Assembly (NCBI RefSeq): GCF_000011005.1 | Contig: NC_013665.1 | Location: 930,001 to 994,000 of the forward strand | Reading direction: 5' to 3' | DNA from: Methanocella paludicola SANAE | GTDB lineage: Archaea > Halobacteriota > Methanocellia > Methanocellales > Methanocellaceae | Length of the DNA: 64,000 nucleotides | Shown: one piece after another, positions 19,553 through 36,696 of the stretch | How positions within the stretch are numbered: the stretch's first letter is position 1 | Layout: every line of letters starts with the position of its first letter | Program-made: the position numbers and the translations under genes | The notes under the pieces: generated by a model | Databases searched by the model: none | What the model saw: the letters and a program-made list of their open reading frames with translations, nothing else | What the model was told of the DNA's origin: nothing

Positions 19553-21118
19553 ATGAAAGAATTTGGAGTCATCGGCCTGGGTTCTGTTGGCTGGTCAGTC
19601 ATACATGGGCTTAGTCAATACTATTCTTATGCCGGTTACGATATTTTAAATGAATATAAATGGGAACCGATCTTAGACACAAAAATCGTTTTTATTTGTG
19701 TAGGAACCCCACTGGGAAATGATGGTAGATTAGATTGTAGCAATGTCCGAGAGGTCATAAGAAAATTATTCGAGGACCACTACAAGGGCGTCGTCGTTGT
19801 TAAAAGCACGGTATCTATCGGTTTCATGGATGCTGCGACTCGTGACTTTCTAGGAATACGCCTTGTCTATATGCCAGAATTTTTACGCGAAAAGAACAGC
19901 TACTCATGGTTTATCAAGCCTGACAGAATAGTTGTTTCTGGAAAACAAAAAGACATAGAAGAAGCGCTTTCCTTTTTCACATGGATTGAGGACGCGGTGA
20001 TTATTAAGACCGATTTTAGGAATGCTGAAACTGGAAAGCTGGCACATAATTCTTATATCGCGACGAAAGTCAGCTTTACGAATGAGATGGAATATATCTG
20101 TAAATCTGTTGGAGCTGATGCACATGATGTCATGAAGATCGTATCGACTGATCGTCGGGTCATGTGTAGCGAACATCTAACTCCTGGACTTGGGCCATAT
20201 GGCGGTAAATGTGTGCTCAAGGATATGAGCGAGTTAACTAATTCGACAAAAAGCGATTTTTTAATATCTGTACGTAATGTCAACGATCGATGTAAAACCC
20301 CGGAAACAATAAATAAGTTCCAGCCTGTAATCGTCATTATCCCGACTAAAAATAGGCCACTGAAACTCGAAAGGGCGCTCTCATCAATTATTGAACAGAC
20401 GTATCATCCCGAATTAGTAATAGTTATCAACGACCCAGTAAGTGACGCAACGGCCACTACACGAATAGTAACCTCAAAATTTACTCGAGATTTACCTGTA
20501 ATACAATTAGTTAATAATCGTTCGAGAAATATTTCGGGTGCCATTAATACCGGCCTTGAATATGTCCAGTATAGGTTTGATATTAAAAATTCTTTTGTAG
20601 CATTACTGGATGATGACGATTGGTGGGACAAGAAATATCTCGAGAATTGTGTAAAATTCGCCCATGAATACGATAGCGACTGGGTGATATCGGGGCTAAT
20701 TCGACACGACAACAAGTCTCCCGAAGGATGCTTCCAAGATATTCCAAATAACATTGAGGTATCCAAATTTTTGGTCACTAATCCCAACATTCAAAATTCA
20801 AACCTCTTCGTCAGGGCTAGTAAATTAATATCTATAGGAGGATACGATGAGAATCTCGTCAGTACGACAGACCGTGATATTTGCATTCGCCTTCTGCAAT
20901 CCAACAGTGTCCATTATACATTTCTCCGAAACCACCTGGTCCACCATGATGCATCGGATGACCCCGGGCGACTATCTCATCCCGGGTCATTGATTAAAAA
21001 GAAGGGGCTGAACGAGTTCTATCATAAGTACTCCTGTTTAATGTCGGGTGAGCAGAAGTCACAGTTCAAGGAGAGGGCAAAGATCCTATTTAAGGTTGAG
21101 ATACAGGAGACGGTATAA
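19553..21118 (+). CDS. Fusion: UDP-sugar dehydrogenase half with family 2 glycosyltransferase
   Basis: 521 residues. Residues 1-245 are the NAD-binding and central parts of the UDP-glucose/GDP-mannose dehydrogenase family: GLGSVG (8-13), VGTP, KSTV, and the catalytic Cys220 in GGKCVLKD with the usual Lys-Asp after it. The third domain, which binds the nucleotide sugar, is missing; instead residues 255-521 are a GT2 (GT-A) glycosyltransferase with a DDDDW metal site (353-357). The start ATG follows a strong ribosome site, and the gene ends in a TAATG overlap with the next. Oxidation without the UDP domain is questionable, so the first half may act on another carrier or be structural. It opens an AT-rich five-gene operon. 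Confidence 0.85.
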   Translation: MKEFGVIGLGSVGWSVIHGLSQYYSYAGYDILNEYKWEPILDTKIVFICVGTPLGNDGRLDCSNVREVIRKLFEDHYKGVVVVKSTVSIGFMDAATRDFLGIRLVYMPEFLREKNSYSWFIKPDRIVVSGKQKDIEEALSFFTWIEDAVIIKTDFRNAETGKLAHNSYIATKVSFTNEMEYICKSVGADAHDVMKIVSTDRRVMCSEHLTPGLGPYGGKCVLKDMSELTNSTKSDFLISVRNVNDRCKTPETINKFQPVIVIIPTKNRPLKLERALSSIIEQTYHPELVIVINDPVSDATATTRIVTSKFTRDLPVIQLVNNRSRNISGAINTGLEYVQYRFDIKNSFVALLDDDDWWDKKYLENCVKFAHEYDSDWVISGLIRHDNKSPEGCFQDIPNNIEVSKFLVTNPNIQNSNLFVRASKLISIGGYDENLVSTTDRDICIRLLQSNSVHYTFLRNHLVHHDASDDPGRLSHPGSLIKKKGLNEFYHKYSCLMSGEQKSQFKERAKILFKVEIQETV

Positions 21119-22065
21119 TGGATACTTATTGCCCCGACCTCTGGACTAGCCTCACCATCGATAACCAGGGAAACGTATACAGCTGCTGCCTGATCAAACC
21201 CGCACGCCTGGGAAATATATACCGGGCGAAACTCGAGAGTCTCGTTAACTATCCGGCGATCGTGGAAGAACGGCAAAATTCGTTGAACGGAAAATTACAG
21301 TGTTATGAGAACTGTAATTGGGTTAAAAAAGACGAATTATCAGGGGAACATATCGCCAGTAGTAAAGTCGAATATGATAAGATGTCTTATCTTCATTTGA
21401 ACTTTGGCGAGAGATGCAATATATCCTGTATCATGTGCAATCAAAGAAAGAGAGTATCGAAAAATCCATGGATACTGGACCCTGAAGTTCTCAAAAAAAA
21501 CATTAATTTGAAGCCATTCTCGGATATTGTGATACAGGGCGGTGAACCCCTTTTTATAAAAGAATGCCTTGAGTATTTAAGCTATCTCGGGAGTATCGGT
21601 AAAAAATACACCTTATTAACAAATGGTCTTTTGATCAATGACCTGATAGCCGATCAGCTTTCTATGGATGCGAAAATCGTCTGTATTTCCTTGAATGCGG
21701 CAACAAAAAATACGCATGAGTATGTTAATCGAGGCTCAAAATGGGACATTATACTGGATAATATAAAGAGGTTAAAAGAGGCCAGATCGCGTAATAATTC
21801 CCGTGTGGAGATATGGGGGAGGATGACAATAACGGCGTCGTCGCTCCATGAGATACCTCTATATTTAAAAATCTGGAAGACTCTTGGATTTGATCATATC
21901 AATTTTGGCTATGATCGCCAAACTGTGCCCTCGTACTTAAAAAGTAACCCACATTTTTATCAACAATTGAGAAAGGAGGTCACATCCGTACTGGCCAGGG
22001 CTGACCTATCGACGATGGATATCTATCGGCTTAAATATCTAGGCCTAGCTGAAGAAGGCGTATAA
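21118..22065 (+). CDS. Radical SAM enzyme with N-terminal SPASM-like cysteines
   Basis: 315 residues. The radical SAM signature CNISCIMC (Cys100, 104, 107) begins a partial TIM barrel with GGEP (about 142). Before it, residues 1-70 read like a SPASM segment: LTIDNQGNVYSCC (Cys23, 24), LGNIY, then CYENCNW (Cys62, 66) plus Cys5, enough for an auxiliary iron-sulfur cluster. SPASM parts normally follow the barrel, so this order is permuted. SPASM enzymes modify peptides or sugars by radical chemistry. The start overlaps the previous stop (TAATG), and the next gene starts 1 base after this stop, so translation is coupled. The substrate is not known. Confidence 0.8.
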   Translation: MDTYCPDLWTSLTIDNQGNVYSCCLIKPARLGNIYRAKLESLVNYPAIVEERQNSLNGKLQCYENCNWVKKDELSGEHIASSKVEYDKMSYLHLNFGERCNISCIMCNQRKRVSKNPWILDPEVLKKNINLKPFSDIVIQGGEPLFIKECLEYLSYLGSIGKKYTLLTNGLLINDLIADQLSMDAKIVCISLNAATKNTHEYVNRGSKWDIILDNIKRLKEARSRNNSRVEIWGRMTITASSLHEIPLYLKIWKTLGFDHINFGYDRQTVPSYLKSNPHFYQQLRKEVTSVLARADLSTMDIYRLKYLGLAEEGV

Positions 22066-22066
22066 T

Positions 22067-22867
22067 ATGGACTTATCCATTGTAATACGCTGTGGAGATG
22101 ACCGACGTGTATTTGACTGCATAAATAGCATCGACGAACATGTTGGCATAATCGTGGCGCTAAGCGAAAATGCGATGCTACAGAAAGAGCTCGAAGAAAA
22201 AAAGATCAAGTATTGCATTACTCCCCGACATAATCTATCTCAAACATCCAATATCGGGATTGATAAAGCAATATATGAGAAAGTCATACTAACCGATTCG
22301 GATACACAATTTGAACCCGGATGTATACGGGAATTATATCATGCGCTCGACCAATATCCAATCGCACGAGCACGAATTAATTTCGAGACAGATAGCGATA
22401 AATATTCATCGAGGCTTGTTTCCGAAGCCCGAGATTATGTAAATTCACTTCCTGTCGTTTATACTCCGGGGATCGCTTTCCGTAAAAGTATTGTAAAACA
22501 TATCGGCGGATTCATGTTCAACGACCTCGTGCCTTATGCCGTCGATGCCGATCTTAATTATCGTTTGGGCAAAACAGACCTTCCTGTCAAATTCATCGAT
22601 AATCTCGGATTAAAACATAATGCCGAGAGCATGAGGCATGACCTGAAGGCCGCATTCAGAATTGGTCGTGGGTGCGCAATTAGTTATCTGAGCTTAAGAA
22701 GGCTCAAGCAATATTCGAGTATACGATGGTATGACCTGAAAGGCGTTAAACTTCAAAGCCTGGGAGATGTCCTCATGAAGAAGGGGCTTATTGTCGCATT
22801 GTATCAGGTTATATGGGACGCATTTTACTGGACAGGATACGCAGGTCAAAGGCTGAGGGGCGTATAA
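22067..22867 (+). CDS. Family 2 glycosyltransferase
   Basis: 266 residues. The N-terminus is a GT-A Rossmann half (LSIVIRCGDDRRVFDCINSI, then NIGIDKAIYEKVILTDSDT) with the D-x-D metal site as DSDT at about residue 77-80. The middle (TPGIAFRKSIVKHIGGF) is typical of the GT2 acceptor-side region, and the C-terminal 60 residues are basic and amphipathic, suggesting attachment to the membrane. It transfers a sugar from a nucleotide donor, probably onto a lipid-linked or protein-linked acceptor. It is the third gene of the coupled operon, 1 base after the radical SAM gene and 3 bases before the giant fusion gene. Confidence 0.8.
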   Translation: MDLSIVIRCGDDRRVFDCINSIDEHVGIIVALSENAMLQKELEEKKIKYCITPRHNLSQTSNIGIDKAIYEKVILTDSDTQFEPGCIRELYHALDQYPIARARINFETDSDKYSSRLVSEARDYVNSLPVVYTPGIAFRKSIVKHIGGFMFNDLVPYAVDADLNYRLGKTDLPVKFIDNLGLKHNAESMRHDLKAAFRIGRGCAISYLSLRRLKQYSSIRWYDLKGVKLQSLGDVLMKKGLIVALYQVIWDAFYWTGYAGQRLRGV

Positions 22868-22870
22868 TCA

Positions 22871-25800
22871 ATGTCAGACTCAACCATAGGGCCTTCCGAA
22901 AAAGTGCGTTTCGATACGACACTATCCCTGATAAAGCAACAATACCCGGATTCTTATTTCAGGTTACTAGGCAGCGGCCATGAATCCGTTATCCTTACGG
23001 ATAATAGATTCACGTATAAAATATTCGATAACCCGGATTTTAAATACAAGTCTTTACTACAGGATTTTAAAATACGCTTCGCGAACTCGAAAAGATTTCT
23101 CTGTATCCTAGATATCCTGGATATTGATGGAATTCCTATTTTAAAATACGAGTATGAAGATTCCACAGAATATACGGGCGGTCACGAAGAGGAAATCATC
23201 GATTTTTTAGTCGAATGTAAGAAATATGGGGTCGTGTGCTGGGACGTCAAACCTCGTAATTTCCGAATTTTTAAGAATGGCTTACGATTCATCGATTATG
23301 GATGGGACATCAAGCCATACAATTTTAAAGATTTTGTTTTCATGGTCCAGCGCACCTATCTAAGTCTAAGATACCCTACAGCCACAAATTTTAAAGAGCT
23401 GGCGCACGAGGCCCTGACGAACTGGGAGCTTCACGAGCTGGATGGATTTCCCAATTTTTTTAATAAAGTCTATGAGCGTGTATTAAACACACAGATTGTA
23501 TGTGAATATCCAATTAAGTATGACCATAAAAAAGAGTATAGATCTATGATAGGTGATTTGCTGAATAAATTTGCGATGGGAAATGAACGTACTATCGAGC
23601 ATATATCCCCAGGAACGGAGCCTTTGGATATAGTCCCAAATTCAATTAATATGACCGGTCCATTAGATAACCTATCAAACTATGCTCCAGTCAATGTTTT
23701 CATATCCAATTGTGTGATAGATTTAAAGAAGGATCAACTGGTCGATTATATCACATCAGTTAAAAAATGTTTAGTACCAAATGGCCTTTTTATCCTAATA
23801 TTGCCAGATCAATTTTATTCGTATAGCATAGAAGAACTCCAGTTACATGATATTAGAACGTTGATAACGAAAGCCGGGTTTTCGATTTTAAGTGAGGACG
23901 AATCGCCCTATTATACGGAAATTTATGGAAATTTTAAAACCGACACATTAATATTAACCAACCGGTTGGCACAGACAGGAAATGAGCGAATAAGCCTGAT
24001 AATTAAAGCATGCTACCAGGATGGGGCTAACCTGGAACGGCAAGTTCAGCATATAGTATCACAGTGTAAGCAACCTCGATCATTCTTGGAAACAATCATT
24101 GTTATCGATCCCAAGAAGGATCATTTCCTGCGCCAGTTCGATGAGCCCTCTATCGATAAGACATATCGAGTGCTGGAAAATCTAAAGATGAGGTCGGTGA
24201 TTGATAATTATTATACTGCGCCTGATAACACAGAACAAATCCGGAAAATAAACCAGCGATGGTTTAACCTCGAATGCTCCAATTCACATAGTATTCAAAA
24301 TATACCAATAACACCTCAAATATACGCTTTTGAGCTAGCCCGGGGAGATTATATCCTGCAGGCTGATTGCGACGTTATGATTGGCCGCCGGGACCGAGAG
24401 CATGACTTTATCGGCGATATGATCTCCGCATTAAAAAATAACCCCGATGCAATATCGGTCTCTTTTAATATCGCTCACGATCCTGATTCAAAAGTCAACG
24501 ATTATACGTCTCCGGGTAATGGCGAGTATAAGCCCGAAGTACGATTTTGCTTATTCGACAAAGATCGTCTCTTCAAGTTAAGGCCGTTCCCGAATGAGCT
24601 TATTGATGGCCGGTTACGGTTATCTTGGTATCAATCGATTTATGAATTCCAGAAAAGGAATGGATTCGTGTCTCTACGCGGGGGAGATCCTAGATCCTTC
24701 TATGTCCATCCGCCCAATGAATATAAGCGTTATGAATTTACCTGGCTATCTATTCGGGAAAGAATTGGGTCCGGCAATATTCCGGACATCCAGTTTGAAA
24801 ATTTTGACCTCGTTGGCATCTATGAGGACTGGTGTTTGCCAAAGAGGGAAGAGCCCTATATCTTCATCATCTGCGGCCGAAATATCACTCCGGCAAAATT
24901 CTATCGCTGCTGGCAATCCTTAAAAAACCAATCCCGGCCATACTGGGGTGCGATCATCATCGACGACGCGTCGACAAATGGATTACCTGATTACATAGGG
25001 CTGCTGGTAAAACCATATGCAAGCAAAGTAACTTTCATCAAGAACCCCTCTCGAAAAGGCGTTCTCCAAAATATTTATGACGCAATAAAAAATTATTGTT
25101 CGAACCCCTATTCCGTTATCATCATTCTGGATGCCGATGATATGTTGATCGGCAATAGTGCGCTTAATACGATCCATCGCCATTATATCGCCGGAGCTGA
25201 TATGACCTCCGGCTCGACCATTCGAATGGATAAGGGATATTATGACTATAAACCGGATTTTGCACATCCGAGAAATCACCGAGGTGGCGATGTCTGGATG
25301 CATATCAGGACATTTAGAAAATATCTATTCGATAGGATTGCTCAGGATGATTTCATTAATAATGGCAAGTGGGTCGATAAATTCACCGAACTTACATATA
25401 TGGTCCCGATCGCCGAAATGGCAAGCAATCCTCATCACATTAAAGTGCCATTGTACCTGTGGGAACCTACTCAAGCGAGAAACAAATTACATTATAAAAT
25501 GAATCGGGAAACGAACGATTTTATTACGTCTAGGAAGCCCTATAATAAAGTAATAAAGCCTAGTATAACGGCCATATCTCCACCGGGGGAAATCATAAAT
25601 AGCCTTCAACCGGGGCAGCTTATTTTCATCCGCCATGCAGAACGAGTGCGCTCTGATGGAAGAAAAGATATTATATCAGATGATGTCCCGCTGACAAATG
25701 ACGGCGCAATTGATTGTAAAACCTTCGGAAAACATTTACCGATTAAGCTGGATCTTATAATTACGAGCCCGGCGCTCCGGGCAGTTCAAACCGCGGAAAA

Positions 25801-26188
25801 TATACGTGCAGGGAACGGTTCGGATTGTAAAATTATCCCGCTTGAAAGCCTGAGGCGATTAAAAATATTTAATTATAAGGAATGGAGACGATTAAAAAAT
25901 AAAAAGGGTTGGCATGGGACGATTCAAGAATGGGTAGCTGGTAAAATTAGTGATAAAGTGATTTATCCCTATGACTCAACTATAATTGAGATTATTAAGT
26001 CTTTAAACATCGAAATGGATAAACATCACTCGCAAAACATACTAGTAGTATCGCATAACCATGTGATTGACCTTCTTTATTATTACTATTTTAATTACTT
26101 AGCAAAGAACGTATTCCACCTGAATGGATTTGTTATTGATAGGAATGAAATTTTATCCGGCCATGATAAATTAGAGGTGGACCAATAA
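22871..26188 (+). CDS. 1105-aa five-domain fusion: kinase-like, methyltransferase-like, two GT2, histidine phosphatase
   Basis: Domains by residue. 30-210: protein-kinase-like fold with a glycine loop (GSGHES), a lysine in YKIF, a catalytic-loop-like CWDVKPRNF (123-131) and FIDYG (140-144) in place of DFG. 215-365: a class I methyltransferase-like segment without a recognisable SAM glycine motif. 370-655: GT2 with DCD (499-501). 660-880: a second GT2 with DADD (754-757). 910-1105: histidine phosphatase with RHAE (921-924) and a second His in SHNH (1061-1064). The combination suggests one protein that phosphorylates, glycosylates and dephosphorylates an intermediate of one pathway. I know of no described protein with this order. 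The stop overlaps the next start. Confidence 0.85.
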   Translation: MSDSTIGPSEKVRFDTTLSLIKQQYPDSYFRLLGSGHESVILTDNRFTYKIFDNPDFKYKSLLQDFKIRFANSKRFLCILDILDIDGIPILKYEYEDSTEYTGGHEEEIIDFLVECKKYGVVCWDVKPRNFRIFKNGLRFIDYGWDIKPYNFKDFVFMVQRTYLSLRYPTATNFKELAHEALTNWELHELDGFPNFFNKVYERVLNTQIVCEYPIKYDHKKEYRSMIGDLLNKFAMGNERTIEHISPGTEPLDIVPNSINMTGPLDNLSNYAPVNVFISNCVIDLKKDQLVDYITSVKKCLVPNGLFILILPDQFYSYSIEELQLHDIRTLITKAGFSILSEDESPYYTEIYGNFKTDTLILTNRLAQTGNERISLIIKACYQDGANLERQVQHIVSQCKQPRSFLETIIVIDPKKDHFLRQFDEPSIDKTYRVLENLKMRSVIDNYYTAPDNTEQIRKINQRWFNLECSNSHSIQNIPITPQIYAFELARGDYILQADCDVMIGRRDREHDFIGDMISALKNNPDAISVSFNIAHDPDSKVNDYTSPGNGEYKPEVRFCLFDKDRLFKLRPFPNELIDGRLRLSWYQSIYEFQKRNGFVSLRGGDPRSFYVHPPNEYKRYEFTWLSIRERIGSGNIPDIQFENFDLVGIYEDWCLPKREEPYIFIICGRNITPAKFYRCWQSLKNQSRPYWGAIIIDDASTNGLPDYIGLLVKPYASKVTFIKNPSRKGVLQNIYDAIKNYCSNPYSVIIILDADDMLIGNSALNTIHRHYIAGADMTSGSTIRMDKGYYDYKPDFAHPRNHRGGDVWMHIRTFRKYLFDRIAQDDFINNGKWVDKFTELTYMVPIAEMASNPHHIKVPLYLWEPTQARNKLHYKMNRETNDFITSRKPYNKVIKPSITAISPPGEIINSLQPGQLIFIRHAERVRSDGRKDIISDDVPLTNDGAIDCKTFGKHLPIKLDLIITSPALRAVQTAENIRAGNGSDCKIIPLESLRRLKIFNYKEWRRLKNKKGWHGTIQEWVAGKISDKVIYPYDSTIIEIIKSLNIEMDKHHSQNILVVSHNHVIDLLYYYYFNYLAKNVFHLNGFVIDRNEILSGHDKLEVDQ

Positions 26189-27030
26189 TGAGATGTAATT
26201 CTTATACGAAATTATCAGATTCGGCGTATAAGCTTACTAACCTTATAAGAATATCCAAACCAATTACAAAGATATTTGGACCAGAATATACTACTTCCCT
26301 CGATAACATTGAAATCGACATCACGTTCAAGTGTAACCTTAAATGTTACAACTGTGACCGTTCCTGCACACAAGCGCCTAGTGAATTGACGATGTCGCTA
26401 GAACAAATAAGAAAATTCATCGATGAGAGTATTTCGAATGATAAGCATTGGTCCCGGATACGTGTTCTGGGCGGCGAACCGACATTACATCCGGATATCG
26501 ACAAAATTTTAAAAATTTTACTTGACTATAAAGAGAATTATTCGCCCACGACCTGGCTTGAACTCACCACAAATAATTTTGGTCCTGAGGTCAATAGAAA
26601 ATTGCTAAAGGTGCCAAGGAAAATATACGTCAATAACACCCGGAAAATGGGTCGATTCCAGAAAAAATTCGAAGCCTTTAATCTTGCGCCTTGCGACAAT
26701 AGGATATATGCATTTACCGATTTTACTAATGCGTGCTGGATAACAAATGATTGTGGTATGGGATTAAACCGTTATGGCTACTATCAATGTGGTGCGGCGG
26801 GATCTATTGATCGAGTATTTGGCATGAATATTGGTTTGAAGAAATTGCCAGTGTATCAATCTGAATTTTACGATCAAAAAACGAATTTATGCTCTTTATG
26901 TGGCCATTTTGCACGACGTAGATTTGTGCCAGGAAATTTGTGTAAGCCTGTAAATGGAGAGCCAAAATCAAATAGATGGATATTAGCTTATGAGAATTAT
27001 TCGAAGCAACCAACATTAAGCTTATATTAA
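26188..27030 (+). CDS. Second radical SAM enzyme of the operon
   Basis: 280 residues. The signature is CNLKCYNCDRSC (Cys49, 53, 56, and an extra Cys60), followed by GGEPTLH (about 95) and further barrel strands (LELTTNN). The C-terminal third has Cys in ACWITNDCG, YQCGAAG and a pair in LCSLCGHF, which could hold one auxiliary cluster. Proteins of this build sit in several glycan-biosynthesis and radical-SAM/glycosyltransferase loci. The ATG overlaps the stop of the giant fusion gene, so it is the last gene of the translationally coupled series. The following gene is convergent, 10 bases away. The substrate is unknown. Confidence 0.8.
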   Translation: MRCNSYTKLSDSAYKLTNLIRISKPITKIFGPEYTTSLDNIEIDITFKCNLKCYNCDRSCTQAPSELTMSLEQIRKFIDESISNDKHWSRIRVLGGEPTLHPDIDKILKILLDYKENYSPTTWLELTTNNFGPEVNRKLLKVPRKIYVNNTRKMGRFQKKFEAFNLAPCDNRIYAFTDFTNACWITNDCGMGLNRYGYYQCGAAGSIDRVFGMNIGLKKLPVYQSEFYDQKTNLCSLCGHFARRRFVPGNLCKPVNGEPKSNRWILAYENYSKQPTLSLY

Positions 27031-31648: not shown

Positions 31649-33211
31649 TTAATTATTATCCCCATTTGGGCCTGATTCTTTTTCCCCATTACCTAACGCA
31701 AGATCTCTAACGCTCTGCTCTAATATCAACGGAGAATCAATATCCTTGTCAGTCGATATACCAAGCTCTTTAAATCTCCTGGCACTCACGAGCAATCTTG
31801 ACTCCATCGAACCGACGGCGGAATTATATGAATTAACCGCTTTCTTGAGGCCCTTACCAACCTCGGACATGTTATCATTAAAAGTGATTATACGATTATA
31901 GAGCTCTTTACCAAGGTTCTTTATTTCTTCCGCATTCTCTGCGATCTGCTCCTGTCTCCACCCATATGCTACTGCTTTCAATAATGCGATCAGCGTTGTA
32001 GGTGTGGCTAGTATCACATTCCTTTCGACACCAAACTCGATAAGTGTAGGATCTTTTTCAAGAGCAGCACTGAAGAAGGTCTCGCCAGGCAAGAACATGA
32101 CAACGAACTCAGGAGTGTCATTGAATTGTTGCCAGTATGACTTATCGCTTAGCTGTGTAATATGTTTCTTAACCTGCGAGGCATGATCGATCAGCTTTTC
32201 ATTCTTTATATCGTCGTCCTTTGCTTCAATGGCATCAATATATGCGTATAAAGGCGCTTTCGAATCCACGATGATGTTCTTGCGGTTTGGAAGGTAAATG
32301 ATCATGTCGGGACGTATATTGCAGCTCTCGTTCCTCAATGGTACCTGTTCTTTGAAGTCGCAATAATTCACCATCCCCGATAATTCCACGACTCTCTTTA
32401 GCTGAATCTCTCCCCATTGGCCACGTACCGAAGGCGCCCTCAGCGCTTTAACGAGGTTAGAAGTTTCCGACTGTAATAGTAATTCGGTTTGAGATAATGT
32501 TTTCACCTGTTCCTTTAATTCTGTATAGGCTGATACACGCTCTTTTTCCATTTCCTGGATCTTTACGTCCACCTTATCGAGCGATTCTTTAAGCGGTGTG
32601 ACCATGTCGTTGATAGCTTTCTGTCGTACTTCGAGATCGACTTTTGCCCCGTTCTGGTAATTTTCGAGAGTTGTCTTTGCCAGATCGAGGAACGATTGAT
32701 TGTTATTTTTGAGAGCCTCGGCCGATAATGCATTAAAGGCGTCGGATAGTTTCTGCTGAGCTTCATTTAGCAGTGCAAGCTTTTCTTCAGTCGACTTACG
32801 CTCCTTTTCCAGGGTCGTGTTTAAATGTTCTATCTGCTTCTGATTTTCCGTATTTTGGGCTTGTAGATCCTTTATAGTAATATCCTTTGCCCGTATGGTC
32901 GAATCCAATTCTGGTATGCGGTTATTTTTCTCTTCTGCCGCCGACCTCTTATCGGATTCTGCACGGACTTGCTCGCGGAGTTGGGCCGCCTCAGAGCGGG
33001 CCTGGCTTAACTGGTCATTCAGGTCTCTCATCTGCGAATCGAAAAATTTCATTTGTTCAGTCTGTGCTACGTGCTGTAGTTCAGACTCAGCTTTAGTTCT
33101 GGCAATTGCATCCTGCACTTTGCTCTTAGATGATATATGCGTTATAGCAAATCCAAAAATAAAACCAACAATAATTGCCCCTATCACTATCCCAATGGTG
33201 AGTAAATCCAT
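31649..33211 (-). CDS. rmuC: DNA recombination protein RmuC
   Basis: 520 residues. One N-terminal transmembrane helix (LTIGIVIGAIIVGFIFGFAI), then about 180 residues of coiled coil (SELQHVAQTEQMKF... LEKERKSTEEKLALLNEAQQ), then the RmuC domain: VRGQWGEIQLKRVVEL, DMIIYLPNRKNIIVDSKAPLYAYIDA and VMFLPGETFFSAALE. The domain has a restriction-nuclease-like core (the D of PDMI and the D-S-K segment). In bacteria RmuC suppresses inversions and gross rearrangements at repeats. It is divergent from the UvrD-type helicase-nuclease with 220 AT-rich bases between; both are in the recombination/defence class. Confidence 0.95.
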   Translation of the reverse strand: MDLLTIGIVIGAIIVGFIFGFAITHISSKSKVQDAIARTKAESELQHVAQTEQMKFFDSQMRDLNDQLSQARSEAAQLREQVRAESDKRSAAEEKNNRIPELDSTIRAKDITIKDLQAQNTENQKQIEHLNTTLEKERKSTEEKLALLNEAQQKLSDAFNALSAEALKNNNQSFLDLAKTTLENYQNGAKVDLEVRQKAINDMVTPLKESLDKVDVKIQEMEKERVSAYTELKEQVKTLSQTELLLQSETSNLVKALRAPSVRGQWGEIQLKRVVELSGMVNYCDFKEQVPLRNESCNIRPDMIIYLPNRKNIIVDSKAPLYAYIDAIEAKDDDIKNEKLIDHASQVKKHITQLSDKSYWQQFNDTPEFVVMFLPGETFFSAALEKDPTLIEFGVERNVILATPTTLIALLKAVAYGWRQEQIAENAEEIKNLGKELYNRIITFNDNMSEVGKGLKKAVNSYNSAVGSMESRLLVSARRFKELGISTDKDIDSPLILEQSVRDLALGNGEKESGPNGDNN

Positions 33212-33432
33212 GTCAAAAGCTTCCCCGATGTTTATTATATAGTGCTTATAAAGTTAGCTATTTTGTAATAAGCATTTATAAGTTAATGATGTAAATTATA
33301 TTTTTTGTAAGTAACATTGGATTAGTTAGCGAAATTTTACTTAATAAATGATATTTTTAGTCCCATAAGCTATAATATAGCATCCGAATATACTTATTGA
33401 GTTAGCATCAGGTAAGCAACGAGGGTATATCG

Positions 33433-36400
33433 ATGGATTTTTTCGAGTGGTTCGCCGAGCGCACGAGCGATGGTGCCAATAAAAGGTACTTGAACGATGA
33501 GCAGAAACGTGCCATAGAAGCTGCAAAGGGCGCTATCCTAGTCGTCGCCGGCGCCGGCACCGGTAAGACCACGATGATCACGGCGAAGGCCGCTTATCTC
33601 ATTAAAGAGAAAAAGTTGAAGCCTGAACGGCTTATTATGCTCACCTTCTCCCGGGAAGCGGCTAAGCACATGAAAGATGAAATCGTAAGGATATTACCCG
33701 AAGCTCGAGACGTATATGCCAACACTTTTCACTCCTTTTGCTATGAGTTTCTCCGGGACCATTCGGCGAAGACCGGCATTACGGACGATTATCAGGTACT
33801 GGATGAGGCGAATGCTAAGTTCCTGATGTATAAAGAGCTTGATGTCCCGGCTTATTGGGTCTCGATCTATGTTAATACTATTCAGAGGGCAAAGGACCTG
33901 GATATTTCTCAAGAAGCTTATGAAGGGTACATTTCCCGGCTTAAGGCTCAGCTTGACGAGTATGCGCCCGGCGCTTCTGATCTGGCTGACGAAGTATCCA
34001 AGGCCACAGTGAGGATCAATACGATGCACCTGGAGCCTCCGACGAAGGCGCTCCGGGAGGAGAAAAATTTCCTGACGGCGTTCATTGAGGCGTACGAGGA
34101 GCATGAGAAATATACAGCGTTTTTAGAGGCCTGGAAAGGCTATGAGAAGCTGAAGTCAGAAAAGAAAATGCTCGACTACGCGGACATGATCAAGATGGTC
34201 ATCGACTACTGCCAGGCCTGGGGTGACGATGCCCTGGCGGAACTTTATGATTATGTCATCGTGGACGAGTTCCAGGATACTAATCGGCAGCAGTTCAAGC
34301 TGTTAAAGATACTGGCCTCGAAGTGCGGCGACATAACCGCTGTGGGTGACGAGAACCAGGCTATTTATGCGTTCAGGGGCGCATATCCGGAGAATATCGG
34401 CGAATTCACAATCGATTTTAAGGCTGACGTAAAGAACCTTACTGAGAATTACCGCTCGACTAATGCGATCTTAAGGACTGCTCACAGGCTTATTGTCAAT
34501 AATTACGATGACCCGGAGGAGACTAAGCTGTTGAAGTCCGCTCTTGGTGTTGAAGGCGACAAGGTGAAGCTGATAAGGACGTCAAACCCTAAAGAGCAGG
34601 CAAGAAGGGTAATCGAAGAGATTGAGCGCATCGTTGAAGATGATATCGATTTTAACCGTATCGCCGTATTATTCCGTTCACATTCCTCCGCGAATGCAGT
34701 CCAATCAGCATTTGAAAGCCGTAGCATCCCGTTTCAGCTTATTAGTAATAACGGATTTTTAAAACGGCCCGAGGTAAGGACGGCTCTCGCTTACCTGTAT
34801 GTCATCGCTAACCTGGAAGATCCGCGTTATGGGGCAGACCAGATGTGGTGGAAGCTCCTGCATTACAAATACGGTCTGACGATGAAGGACTCGCACATAC
34901 TGGCAAAAGCGGCAAAGCGTGATACCATCCAGAACGTGCTTCTGGGGAAGCTGCCGGATGCACTATCGTGGGATGGGAAGAAAAAGATCAACTCGCTGCT
35001 GGCTAAGATAGAGGAGTTGAGGAAGAACAAGAATAAGTCGTTGTCGAATTTATTGCTGGATGTTTACGAGGCATCCGGATTGTCCCGGGAGCTCTCACAT
35101 GAGTCGACCCGGACTAGCCGCATATGGATGTTGAACCTGAGATACCTGCACGACCTGGTTGCCGGGTTCGAGGACTTTTACGGCGCTGACTTAGCCGGGT
35201 TCATCGAGTACATGCGCATGCTTGATGAGCTGGGTGAAGATCTTGATGCGCCCACTTTAAAGGAAGCTCAAGGGGTCGTGCTCATGACCTGCCATGGCGC
35301 AAAAGGCTTAGAATACGACTACGTGTTCATCGTCGACCTGGCTAAGGATAAATTCCCTATCACGGCTGGCGGCCGGGCGCCGCTATTGCCTGACGAGCTC
35401 AACGACCGCTTCAGGGATATCTTTGAGGCCGAATGGGAGAGCGATAAAGAGCTGGACGAGGCGTTGAAGGCCCGGAAGCGAGAGCTGCGGCTGAAGGAAG
35501 AGCGGCGGCTGGCATACGTGGCCTATACTCGGGCGAAGAAGGAGCTTTATCTCTGTCATCCGCAGTCGTATGGCGAGAACGAGCGCAGCCCGTCGATGTT
35601 CATCGCTGAGTCGTGCTTTGAGGATAATAGCGTCCACGACGATATCGAGCTCATCCAGGACGATGAGGTAAAAGTCGGAGAGATGGCGAAGGATGGCGCC
35701 CTGGATAAGAAAAAGGACGAGATCAAGAGGCTGGTGCTTTCGACGATCGATTCGGAGCCTCAGCTGGCGCTTTATAATTTATTGTTGTACCAGGGTCTGT
35801 GTTGTCATAATCTGCCCTCTGGCATTCCTGAAGCGGCGAGGGCGAGAGAAGATGCAGCCCTGATCATGAAAGACATCGGCGATGGGACGCCTCTCGGGTT
35901 GAAGTTCGACCCCGAGGAGGTCGTTTTATCCCATTCATCGCTGAAGATTTACCGTGACTGTCCCAAAAAGTTTGAGCTTGCGCGGCTGCTGAGGATGCCA
36001 TCGAGGTACGATGACGAGGAGGAGGGCGAGGGAGCCCTGGGATTCGGCACGTTCGTTCATGAAGCCCTGGAACTTGCGGCGAAGAATAAGGTGAAGTCGA
36101 GGCAGGAGCTCGATGATATTGCCGCTGAGCTGCTAAAAGAGCCCGGTTATAAGGATATTGATGTAAAGCGGGCTAAGGTCATCTTCGATACGTTCTGGGC
36201 GCGCAACAGGACTAAGCTCGGTAATGTGGTCATGACAGAGCAGGCGTTCAGTTTCGAGCTCGGCGGGTTCAGGTTCTCCGGGAAGATCGACCGTGTGGAC
36301 GAGCTGAATGGTAATGGTGAGGTAGAGATCATCGATTATAAGACTGGCCGGGAGCCGTCTAAAGAGGACCGGGAGAGCCAGTTGTTGCTTTATAAGCTGG

Positions 36401-36696
36401 CTTTTGAGTATGACCCTGCTTTGAAGGCGATGGGATATAAGCCGATGAACCTTACGCTGGAGTTGTTAGAGGCGGAGAAGCCGAGGATATTCCAGGTCGA
36501 CGATGATGGATTCATGGTGTGCACTAATGGGCGGTGCGTTAAGGCGAATGTCGCTGAAGTTGAGGCCGGTTTACTGGAACTCGCTGAGTGTATTAAGCAT
36601 GATTACGAGAACGGTTTCGGGGTGAAGGAGGATTGCGGCGGTACTATGGGTGGGGGGAGTAGTTGTGAGTACAGGATGTACTGCCCTAGGTGGTGA
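33433..36696 (+). CDS. UvrD-type helicase fused to a RecB-like nuclease with iron-sulfur cysteines
   Basis: 1087 residues. The superfamily 1 helicase motifs run in order: VVAGAGTGKTTMI (37-49), DEFQDTNRQQ (about 277), GDENQAIYAFRGA (motif III), NYRSTNAIL (IV) and CHGAKGLEYDYVF (V), and VAYTRAKKELYL (VI). The C-terminal 250 residues are a PD-(D/E)XK nuclease: RDCPKKFELARLLRMP, GTFVHEALE, GKIDRVDE and EIIDYKTG. Cys in YRDCPKK and in the final EDC...SSCEYRMYC segment is the Cys-x(n)-Cys-x-Cys-x-Cys pattern of AddB/Cas4-like iron-sulfur nucleases. It is an end-processing helicase-nuclease merged in one chain. Normal AddAB complexes split these roles; single-chain forms are known in archaea. Divergent from rmuC. 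Confidence 0.9.
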   Translation: MDFFEWFAERTSDGANKRYLNDEQKRAIEAAKGAILVVAGAGTGKTTMITAKAAYLIKEKKLKPERLIMLTFSREAAKHMKDEIVRILPEARDVYANTFHSFCYEFLRDHSAKTGITDDYQVLDEANAKFLMYKELDVPAYWVSIYVNTIQRAKDLDISQEAYEGYISRLKAQLDEYAPGASDLADEVSKATVRINTMHLEPPTKALREEKNFLTAFIEAYEEHEKYTAFLEAWKGYEKLKSEKKMLDYADMIKMVIDYCQAWGDDALAELYDYVIVDEFQDTNRQQFKLLKILASKCGDITAVGDENQAIYAFRGAYPENIGEFTIDFKADVKNLTENYRSTNAILRTAHRLIVNNYDDPEETKLLKSALGVEGDKVKLIRTSNPKEQARRVIEEIERIVEDDIDFNRIAVLFRSHSSANAVQSAFESRSIPFQLISNNGFLKRPEVRTALAYLYVIANLEDPRYGADQMWWKLLHYKYGLTMKDSHILAKAAKRDTIQNVLLGKLPDALSWDGKKKINSLLAKIEELRKNKNKSLSNLLLDVYEASGLSRELSHESTRTSRIWMLNLRYLHDLVAGFEDFYGADLAGFIEYMRMLDELGEDLDAPTLKEAQGVVLMTCHGAKGLEYDYVFIVDLAKDKFPITAGGRAPLLPDELNDRFRDIFEAEWESDKELDEALKARKRELRLKEERRLAYVAYTRAKKELYLCHPQSYGENERSPSMFIAESCFEDNSVHDDIELIQDDEVKVGEMAKDGALDKKKDEIKRLVLSTIDSEPQLALYNLLLYQGLCCHNLPSGIPEAARAREDAALIMKDIGDGTPLGLKFDPEEVVLSHSSLKIYRDCPKKFELARLLRMPSRYDDEEEGEGALGFGTFVHEALELAAKNKVKSRQELDDIAAELLKEPGYKDIDVKRAKVIFDTFWARNRTKLGNVVMTEQAFSFELGGFRFSGKIDRVDELNGNGEVEIIDYKTGREPSKEDRESQLLLYKLAFEYDPALKAMGYKPMNLTLELLEAEKPRIFQVDDDGFMVCTNGRCVKANVAEVEAGLLELAECIKHDYENGFGVKEDCGGTMGGGSSCEYRMYCPRW

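Follow-up and report, generated by a model that had tools for sequence, protein, structure and literature searches.

The O7 ORF6 protein of Klebsiella pneumoniae unites in one chain, in the order methyltransferase-kinase, coiled coil and GT2-GT2, a pair of modules that caps a glycan in vitro and two GT2 modules that help to build that glycan (PMC11231755). ORF6 and WbdD are the described systems closest to the protein reported here. Tandem GT-A domains are also found in the E. coli K4 chondroitin polymerase and in Pasteurella heparosan synthase 2, and the histidine phosphatases of branch 1 (CobC and GpmB-like proteins) carry an RHA or RHG motif, an Arg, and a second His. We describe an archaeal protein from Methanocella paludicola SANAE, encoded in a 64,000-nucleotide stretch of the chromosome (the window), which is one chain of 1105 amino acids with five predicted folded domains. 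We found no description of its kinase-GT2-GT2 architecture in the literature searched.

Five predicted domains in a single chain

Positions 22871-26188 of the window hold one intact forward-strand ORF with an ATG start and no internal stops, in agreement with the single 1105-residue protein of the preliminary description. The reverse strand is rich in stops throughout, which rules out an overlapping antisense gene. The genome is a single contig of 2,957,635 bases, published as finished (PMC3146512), and encodes the protein once. The same architecture recurs in Methanosarcina sp. KYL-1 and in one Methanomassiliicoccales archaeon, and there is no copy in the three other genomes of the M. paludicola family. 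Among 392 genomes of the phylum there is one full-length homologue; because it is collinear over residues 17-1101 (46% identity), chance is excluded. An assembly join is ruled out by the finished genome and the collinear homologues. A phage origin was also rejected: phage records gave one GT2-only match, and relatives lie on only two viral contigs. The ORF and its domains are as follows.

22871-26188, forward strand: five-domain ORF, 1105 aa, comprising kinase-like, degenerate methyltransferase, GT2-like A, GT2 B, and histidine phosphatase domains (Pfam, homologues, predicted model)
22922-23488, forward strand: kinase-like domain, residues 18-206, with GSG at 34-36, Lys50, Asp125, Asn130, and Asp142 (profile, family alignment, Foldseek)
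23525-23968, forward strand: degenerate class I methyltransferase-like domain, residues 219-366, lacking the SAM glycine loop (hhalign, model fold)
23987-24844, forward strand: GT2-like domain A, residues 373-658, with DCD at 499-501 (invariant Asp, single-gene homologues, K4CP tandem match, weak Pfam match)
24851-25555, forward strand: GT2 domain B, residues 661-895, with DADD at 754-757 (Pfam PF00535, structural matches)
25613-26143, forward strand: histidine phosphatase domain, residues 915-1091, with RHAE at 921 and His1062 (Pfam PF00300, kept RH, Arg, and His)

Above its cut-offs Pfam names two domains only, GT2 and His_Phos_1. A full-length AlphaFold2 model built from 44 sequences has a mean pLDDT of 87.8 and a pTM of 0.83, and a separate model of residues 1-371 has a pLDDT of 87.3. 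Pfam, the profiles of relatives, and the predicted model together bear out the five domains and folds proposed earlier from the sequence. The landmarks then listed are also in place: CWDVKPRNF at residue 123, FIDYG at 140, DCD at 499, DADD at 754, RHAE at 921, and the second phosphatase His at 1062, in an SHNH that begins at 1061.

The kinase-like domain matches no Pfam family and has no NCBIfam name. A profile of residues 1-213 from 37 relatives matches protein kinases in the PDB (best E 4.7e-7), Foldseek matches the domain to PknB, CaMKII, and APH(2'')-Ia, and the first part of the model of residues 1-371 matches protein kinases and aminoglycoside phosphotransferases. The predicted fold, Lys50, the catalytic-loop residues Asp125 and Asn130, and the DFG Asp142 place the domain in the protein-kinase-like superfamily. 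The His of the HRD motif is absent, C-W-D replacing H-R-D. Across an alignment of 55 kinase-like domains of the family, the equivalents of Lys50, Asn130, and Asp142 are invariant (55/55), but 29 have Asn in place of the catalytic-loop Asp, and phosphotransfer cannot be taken for granted throughout the family. Every member whose methyltransferase is intact has the Asn; the Asp, in a DxKxxN loop, is kept by the window protein, by its two five-domain relatives, and by most members fused to a radical SAM domain. Phylogeny may account for this pairing of Asn with an intact methyltransferase, as against Asp in the clade of the window protein.

Residues ~213-368 are modeled with a class I methyltransferase fold, the best structural match being a phosphoethanolamine methyltransferase (Z 15.9, 2.8 Å over 145 residues). 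There is no GxG motif in residues 206-372 of the window protein, whereas 15 relatives with an intact region have an invariant DYGCG loop between the kinase and the first GT2, and Pfam methyltransferase families match all 15. The loop is missing from the window protein and from its Methanosarcina and Methanomassiliicoccales counterparts, and the profile of these three degenerate members aligns with the intact profile over the C-terminal half only (hhalign 94.9%, E 4.2e-8). Since the intact relatives carry the SAM loop and the archaeal five-domain members do not, the earlier suggestion that this region has no clear glycine loop and may be a scaffold is well founded; a non-catalytic role in the window protein is well supported.

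Domain B is a GT2 by Pfam (PF00535 at 675-808, E 3.9e-13, 50.1 bits against a cut-off of 23.3). Its residues D754, D756, and D757 show conservation of 90% or more across 44 relatives, and its structural matches are WrtF, RmlT, SpsA, and TarS (Z 20-21). Domain A is divergent: it scores 14.6 bits with PF00535 (E 0.031), below the cut-off of 23.3, the best Pfam GT2 score among relatives is E 6.6e-4, and a first-GT2 profile found no sequence match among PDB chains. D499 and D501 are invariant in 44 sequences, and the best Foldseek match of the full-length model over both GT domains is the chondroitin polymerase K4CP (E 1.2e-18). Domain A thus has a predicted GT-A fold and a DXD motif, and is called GT-A-like by the model and DCD only. 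In VIA, K4CP gives a Z of 23.4 with a large rmsd, which we read as a differing orientation of the domains.

The C-terminal domain matches His_Phos_1 at residues 917-1084 (PF00300, E 3.5e-15, 56.6 bits against a cut-off of 21.7). The RH, Arg, and second His are kept across the family, as in histidine phosphatases of branch 1; the domain falls well short of all NCBIfam equivalog cut-offs.

A five-gene cassette and its relatives

The five-domain gene stands fourth in a run of five genes that abut one another at 19553-27030, the others being:

19553-21118, forward strand: NDP-sugar dehydrogenase-like domain without its C-terminal domain, fused to a GT2 (Pfam PF00984, PF03721, PF00535)
21118-22065, forward strand: radical SAM/SPASM protein with CNISCIMC (PF04055, 5.9e-17; PF13186; NF033640, 4.5e-25, below cut-off)
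22067-22867, forward strand: small GT2 protein, 266 aa (PF00535, 8.4e-6)
26188-27030, forward strand: second radical SAM protein with CNLKCYNC, overlapping the five-domain ORF by 1 nt (PF04055, 4.6e-10)

The dehydrogenase-GT2 fusion is conserved within the cassette; in the window, the domain lost from the dehydrogenase-like part is the UDP-binding one, and the Cys of GGKC is kept. In bacterial relatives, a homologue of the second radical SAM protein forms one chain with the kinase-GT2-GT2 core, and that a domain fused there is an adjoining gene here supports a shared pathway. The five-gene block yielded no flippase, ligase, or ABC exporter.

The cassette has a GC content of 37-43%, compared with 56.5% in the left flank and 40.7% in the right. 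Low-GC regions of this genome have been regarded as likely to be horizontally acquired (PMC3146512), and the low GC of the cassette and its absence from the three other family genomes fit such an acquisition. GC falls from 56.5% to about 41% at window position ~19200 and stays low to at least 41.5 kb, which suggests a larger acquired island. Within this low-GC part, at 31649-36696, an RmuC-like gene lies beside a gene for a UvrD/AddA-like helicase whose C-terminal part weakly matches Cas4.

Scans of viral and genome contigs with the single protein gave no matches; a scan of the genome contigs with the first-GT2 alignment gave 55 loci. About 50 relatives, from archaea and bacteria of some ten phyla, have a common kinase-GT2-GT2 core, around which methyltransferase, phosphatase, radical SAM, and two more GT2 modules are gained or dropped. 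HMM annotation distinguishes three types:

Kinase-methyltransferase-GT-GT-phosphatase: archaea
Kinase-GT-GT-radical SAM: mostly Bacteroidota and Treponema; some Myxococcota, Thiotrichaceae, and others
GT2-GT2-kinase-methyltransferase-GT-GT, with or without phosphatase: Planctomycetota, methanogens, and others

In a tree of the first GT2, the archaeal five-domain members group with archaeal single GT2s (94/83, not starred), and this group is sister to the radical-SAM-fused clade (joint group 97/94). Giant proteins of ~1735 aa in the phylum have two extra N-terminal GT2-like regions and an intact methyltransferase, and the phosphatase is the next gene; standalone dehydrogenase homologues precede giants in L014, L015, L063, and L065. 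In some genomes of the phylum, the kinase and the first GT2 are single genes of the same cassette. The split homologues that the preliminary description had asked about therefore exist in related archaea, for the kinase, the first GT2, or the phosphatase.

Other genes accompany the bacterial cassettes. A GT2-epimerase-GT2 ORF, with an NAD-dependent sugar epimerase, lies directly upstream of the kinase-GT2-GT2-radical SAM gene in L028 (6675-9194), L025, L031, and L033, and is fused to it in L041. Defence-type genes (PglZ, DrmD/DrmMI, McrBC-like, a BrxH/DrmD-like helicase, DruE-like, CRISPR I-E, and GmrSD-like) are found beside cassettes at:

L028, 340-4601
L042, 15163-19166
L045, 4258-6756
L047, 4253-6787
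L049, 12844-20740
L056, 3293-6196
L061, 84-5345 and 13933-20427

A defence function was not adopted, such genes occurring at only a minority of loci by raw count.

Possible products of the cassette

We give roughly even chances to the reading that the protein assembles a glycan in the cytoplasm, as a modular enzyme of one chain that includes a kinase step. The two GT2 domains would attach two sugars, one after the other, taken from nucleotide-sugar donors; the kinase-like domain would phosphorylate a hydroxyl of the oligosaccharide or of its carrier; and the phosphatase would take a phosphate off that intermediate or a later one, with the dead methyltransferase as a spacer or binding platform. 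The neighboring dehydrogenase-GT2 fusion, the small GT2, and the pair of radical SAM proteins may supply further sugars and modify them, and the whole may be a horizontally spread cassette whose product is an unusual phosphosugar-containing compound. This reading is favored by the conserved GT, phosphatase, and kinase nucleotide-binding motifs, by the three further GT2 or sugar-dehydrogenase units in the abutting block, and by the sugar epimerases adjacent or fused in relatives; O7 ORF6 is its closest experimentally tested precedent. Against it we count the frequent Asn at the catalytic Asp, the sub-threshold Pfam score of the first GT2, the lack of a flippase, ligase, or exporter in the block, and the split homologues. 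The preliminary description had gone further, suggesting that a phosphorylated glycan intermediate is processed without release. The motifs for such processing are present, but physical channelling is no conserved requirement, because in close relatives either the phosphatase or the kinase and first GT2 are proteins of their own; the split homologues show that the pathway does not depend on the fusion.

Two other readings concern the chain itself. The kinase-like domain might bind nucleotides as a pseudokinase, or catalyze a reaction other than phosphoryl transfer, and regulate or scaffold the two GT2s; the fusion would then do no more than fix stoichiometry, and the phosphatase would have a small, unrelated substrate. 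The loss of the catalytic Asp from over half of the family while Lys, Asn, and the DFG Asp are invariant would fit, as would the missing HRD His in the window protein and the occurrence of kinase, GT2, and phosphatase as separate genes. We think this unlikely, given the Asp and DxKxxN loop in the window protein, its five-domain relatives, and most radical-SAM-fused members, and given the comparable Klebsiella O7 chain, whose kinase is active although highly divergent (PMC11231755). Alternatively, the protein could be a chain polymerase and terminator comparable to those of ABC-transporter-dependent O antigens, in which the GT2s polymerize and the kinase caps. It has the same set of catalytic modules as O7 ORF6 and a two-domain chondroitin polymerase as its best structural match; but a coiled-coil ruler is absent from the model, the methyltransferase is dead, the phosphatase would undo the cap, and no ABC exporter lies in the block, all of which makes this reading very improbable.

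A different product is raised by the neighbors of bacterial relatives, whose operons repeatedly hold genes for making or importing a free base derived from GTP or a purine. The cassette might glycosylate, phosphorylate, and radical-modify a free GTP-derived base, such as preQ0 (a 7-deazaguanine), to give a base-containing glycoconjugate; the archaeon would draw its preQ0 from the archaeosine pathway, a housekeeping route. QueC adjoins the cassette in four loci of three lineages, and a YhhQ-type transporter of queuosine precursors (preQ0/preQ1) lies directly upstream of it in six:

L039, 12532-13242: QueC after radical SAM genes
L044, 12363-12998; L045, 12393-13016; L047, 12393-13022: QueC directly after the kinase-GT2-GT2-radical SAM gene
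L027, 1394-2032; L040, 1477-2139; L054, 1833-2471; L055, 4950-5588; L057, 6987-7625; L058, 6962-7591: YhhQ-type transporter

These genes mostly overlap the next cassette gene or lie within 3 nt of it, and never occur together in one locus. A gene for a LOG-like hydrolase (TIGR00725) follows giants in ~14 loci, and on a Pseudoalteromonas plasmid a GT2-kinase-GT-like relative is followed by a fusion of GTP cyclohydrolase II (RibA) and a NADAR N-glycosidase and then by an asparagine-synthase-like gene (L081, 10720-16556). M. paludicola itself has one QueC. We nevertheless regard a base as a doubtful substrate. The QueC and YhhQ linkage is confined to bacterial relatives; the archaeal five-domain blocks (the window, L022, and L023) have no QueC, YhhQ, LOG-like, or RibA-NADAR gene, and, with no preQ0-forming or -importing gene in the window operon, the M. 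paludicola QueC lies ~277 kb away. The genomes with an operon QueC have no other full-length one, so the cassette may have landed next to a housekeeping gene, and no gene clearly attaching a sugar to a base was recognized. That the protein is the archaeal form of widespread assembly-line enzymes with cassettes that yield a glycosylated, phosphorylated, radical-SAM-modified nucleobase (7-deazaguanine or another GTP-derived base) is a rather unlikely proposal; if true, archaea and bacteria would have a base-sugar compound of a new class.

Apart from the identity of the product, the window protein joins in one chain modules that are otherwise interchangeable around the kinase-GT2-GT2 core, and its relatives are Rosetta-stone fusions that place the radical SAM and phosphatase steps in one pathway with sugar transfer. 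Should the QueC, YhhQ, LOG-like, and RibA-NADAR neighbors be functional, the family would point to an unknown class of base-sugar metabolites, for which cultivable bacteria (Olleya, Lacinutrix) offer a place to look.

Comparison with known systems

Like O7 ORF6 (PMC11231755) and WbdD, the window protein combines a kinase, a methyltransferase-type domain, and a pair of GT2 modules in a single polypeptide; it also has motifs of the DXD type and a kinase missed by sequence libraries. It differs in having the kinase before the methyltransferase, an extra histidine phosphatase, no SAM loop, and no coiled-coil molecular ruler in its model, where the longest helices are ~21 residues; it is also archaeal and associated with radical SAM genes. 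Because the ruler is missing, the methyltransferase dead, and a phosphatase added, we do not claim membership of the ORF6-type terminators. The K4 chondroitin polymerase and heparosan synthase 2 have the tandem GT-A arrangement and provide the best Foldseek and VIA match, but at 14% identity and without kinase, methyltransferase, or phosphatase. The phosphatase domain resembles CobC and GpmB-like enzymes in its RHA/RHG-type motif, Arg, and second His, and differs from them in being fused to GT2s. Bacterial kinase-GT2-GT2 members carry other accessory modules, those fused to radical SAM lacking both methyltransferase and phosphatase, but their core is homologous, and in the alignment they are 27-46% identical to the window protein.
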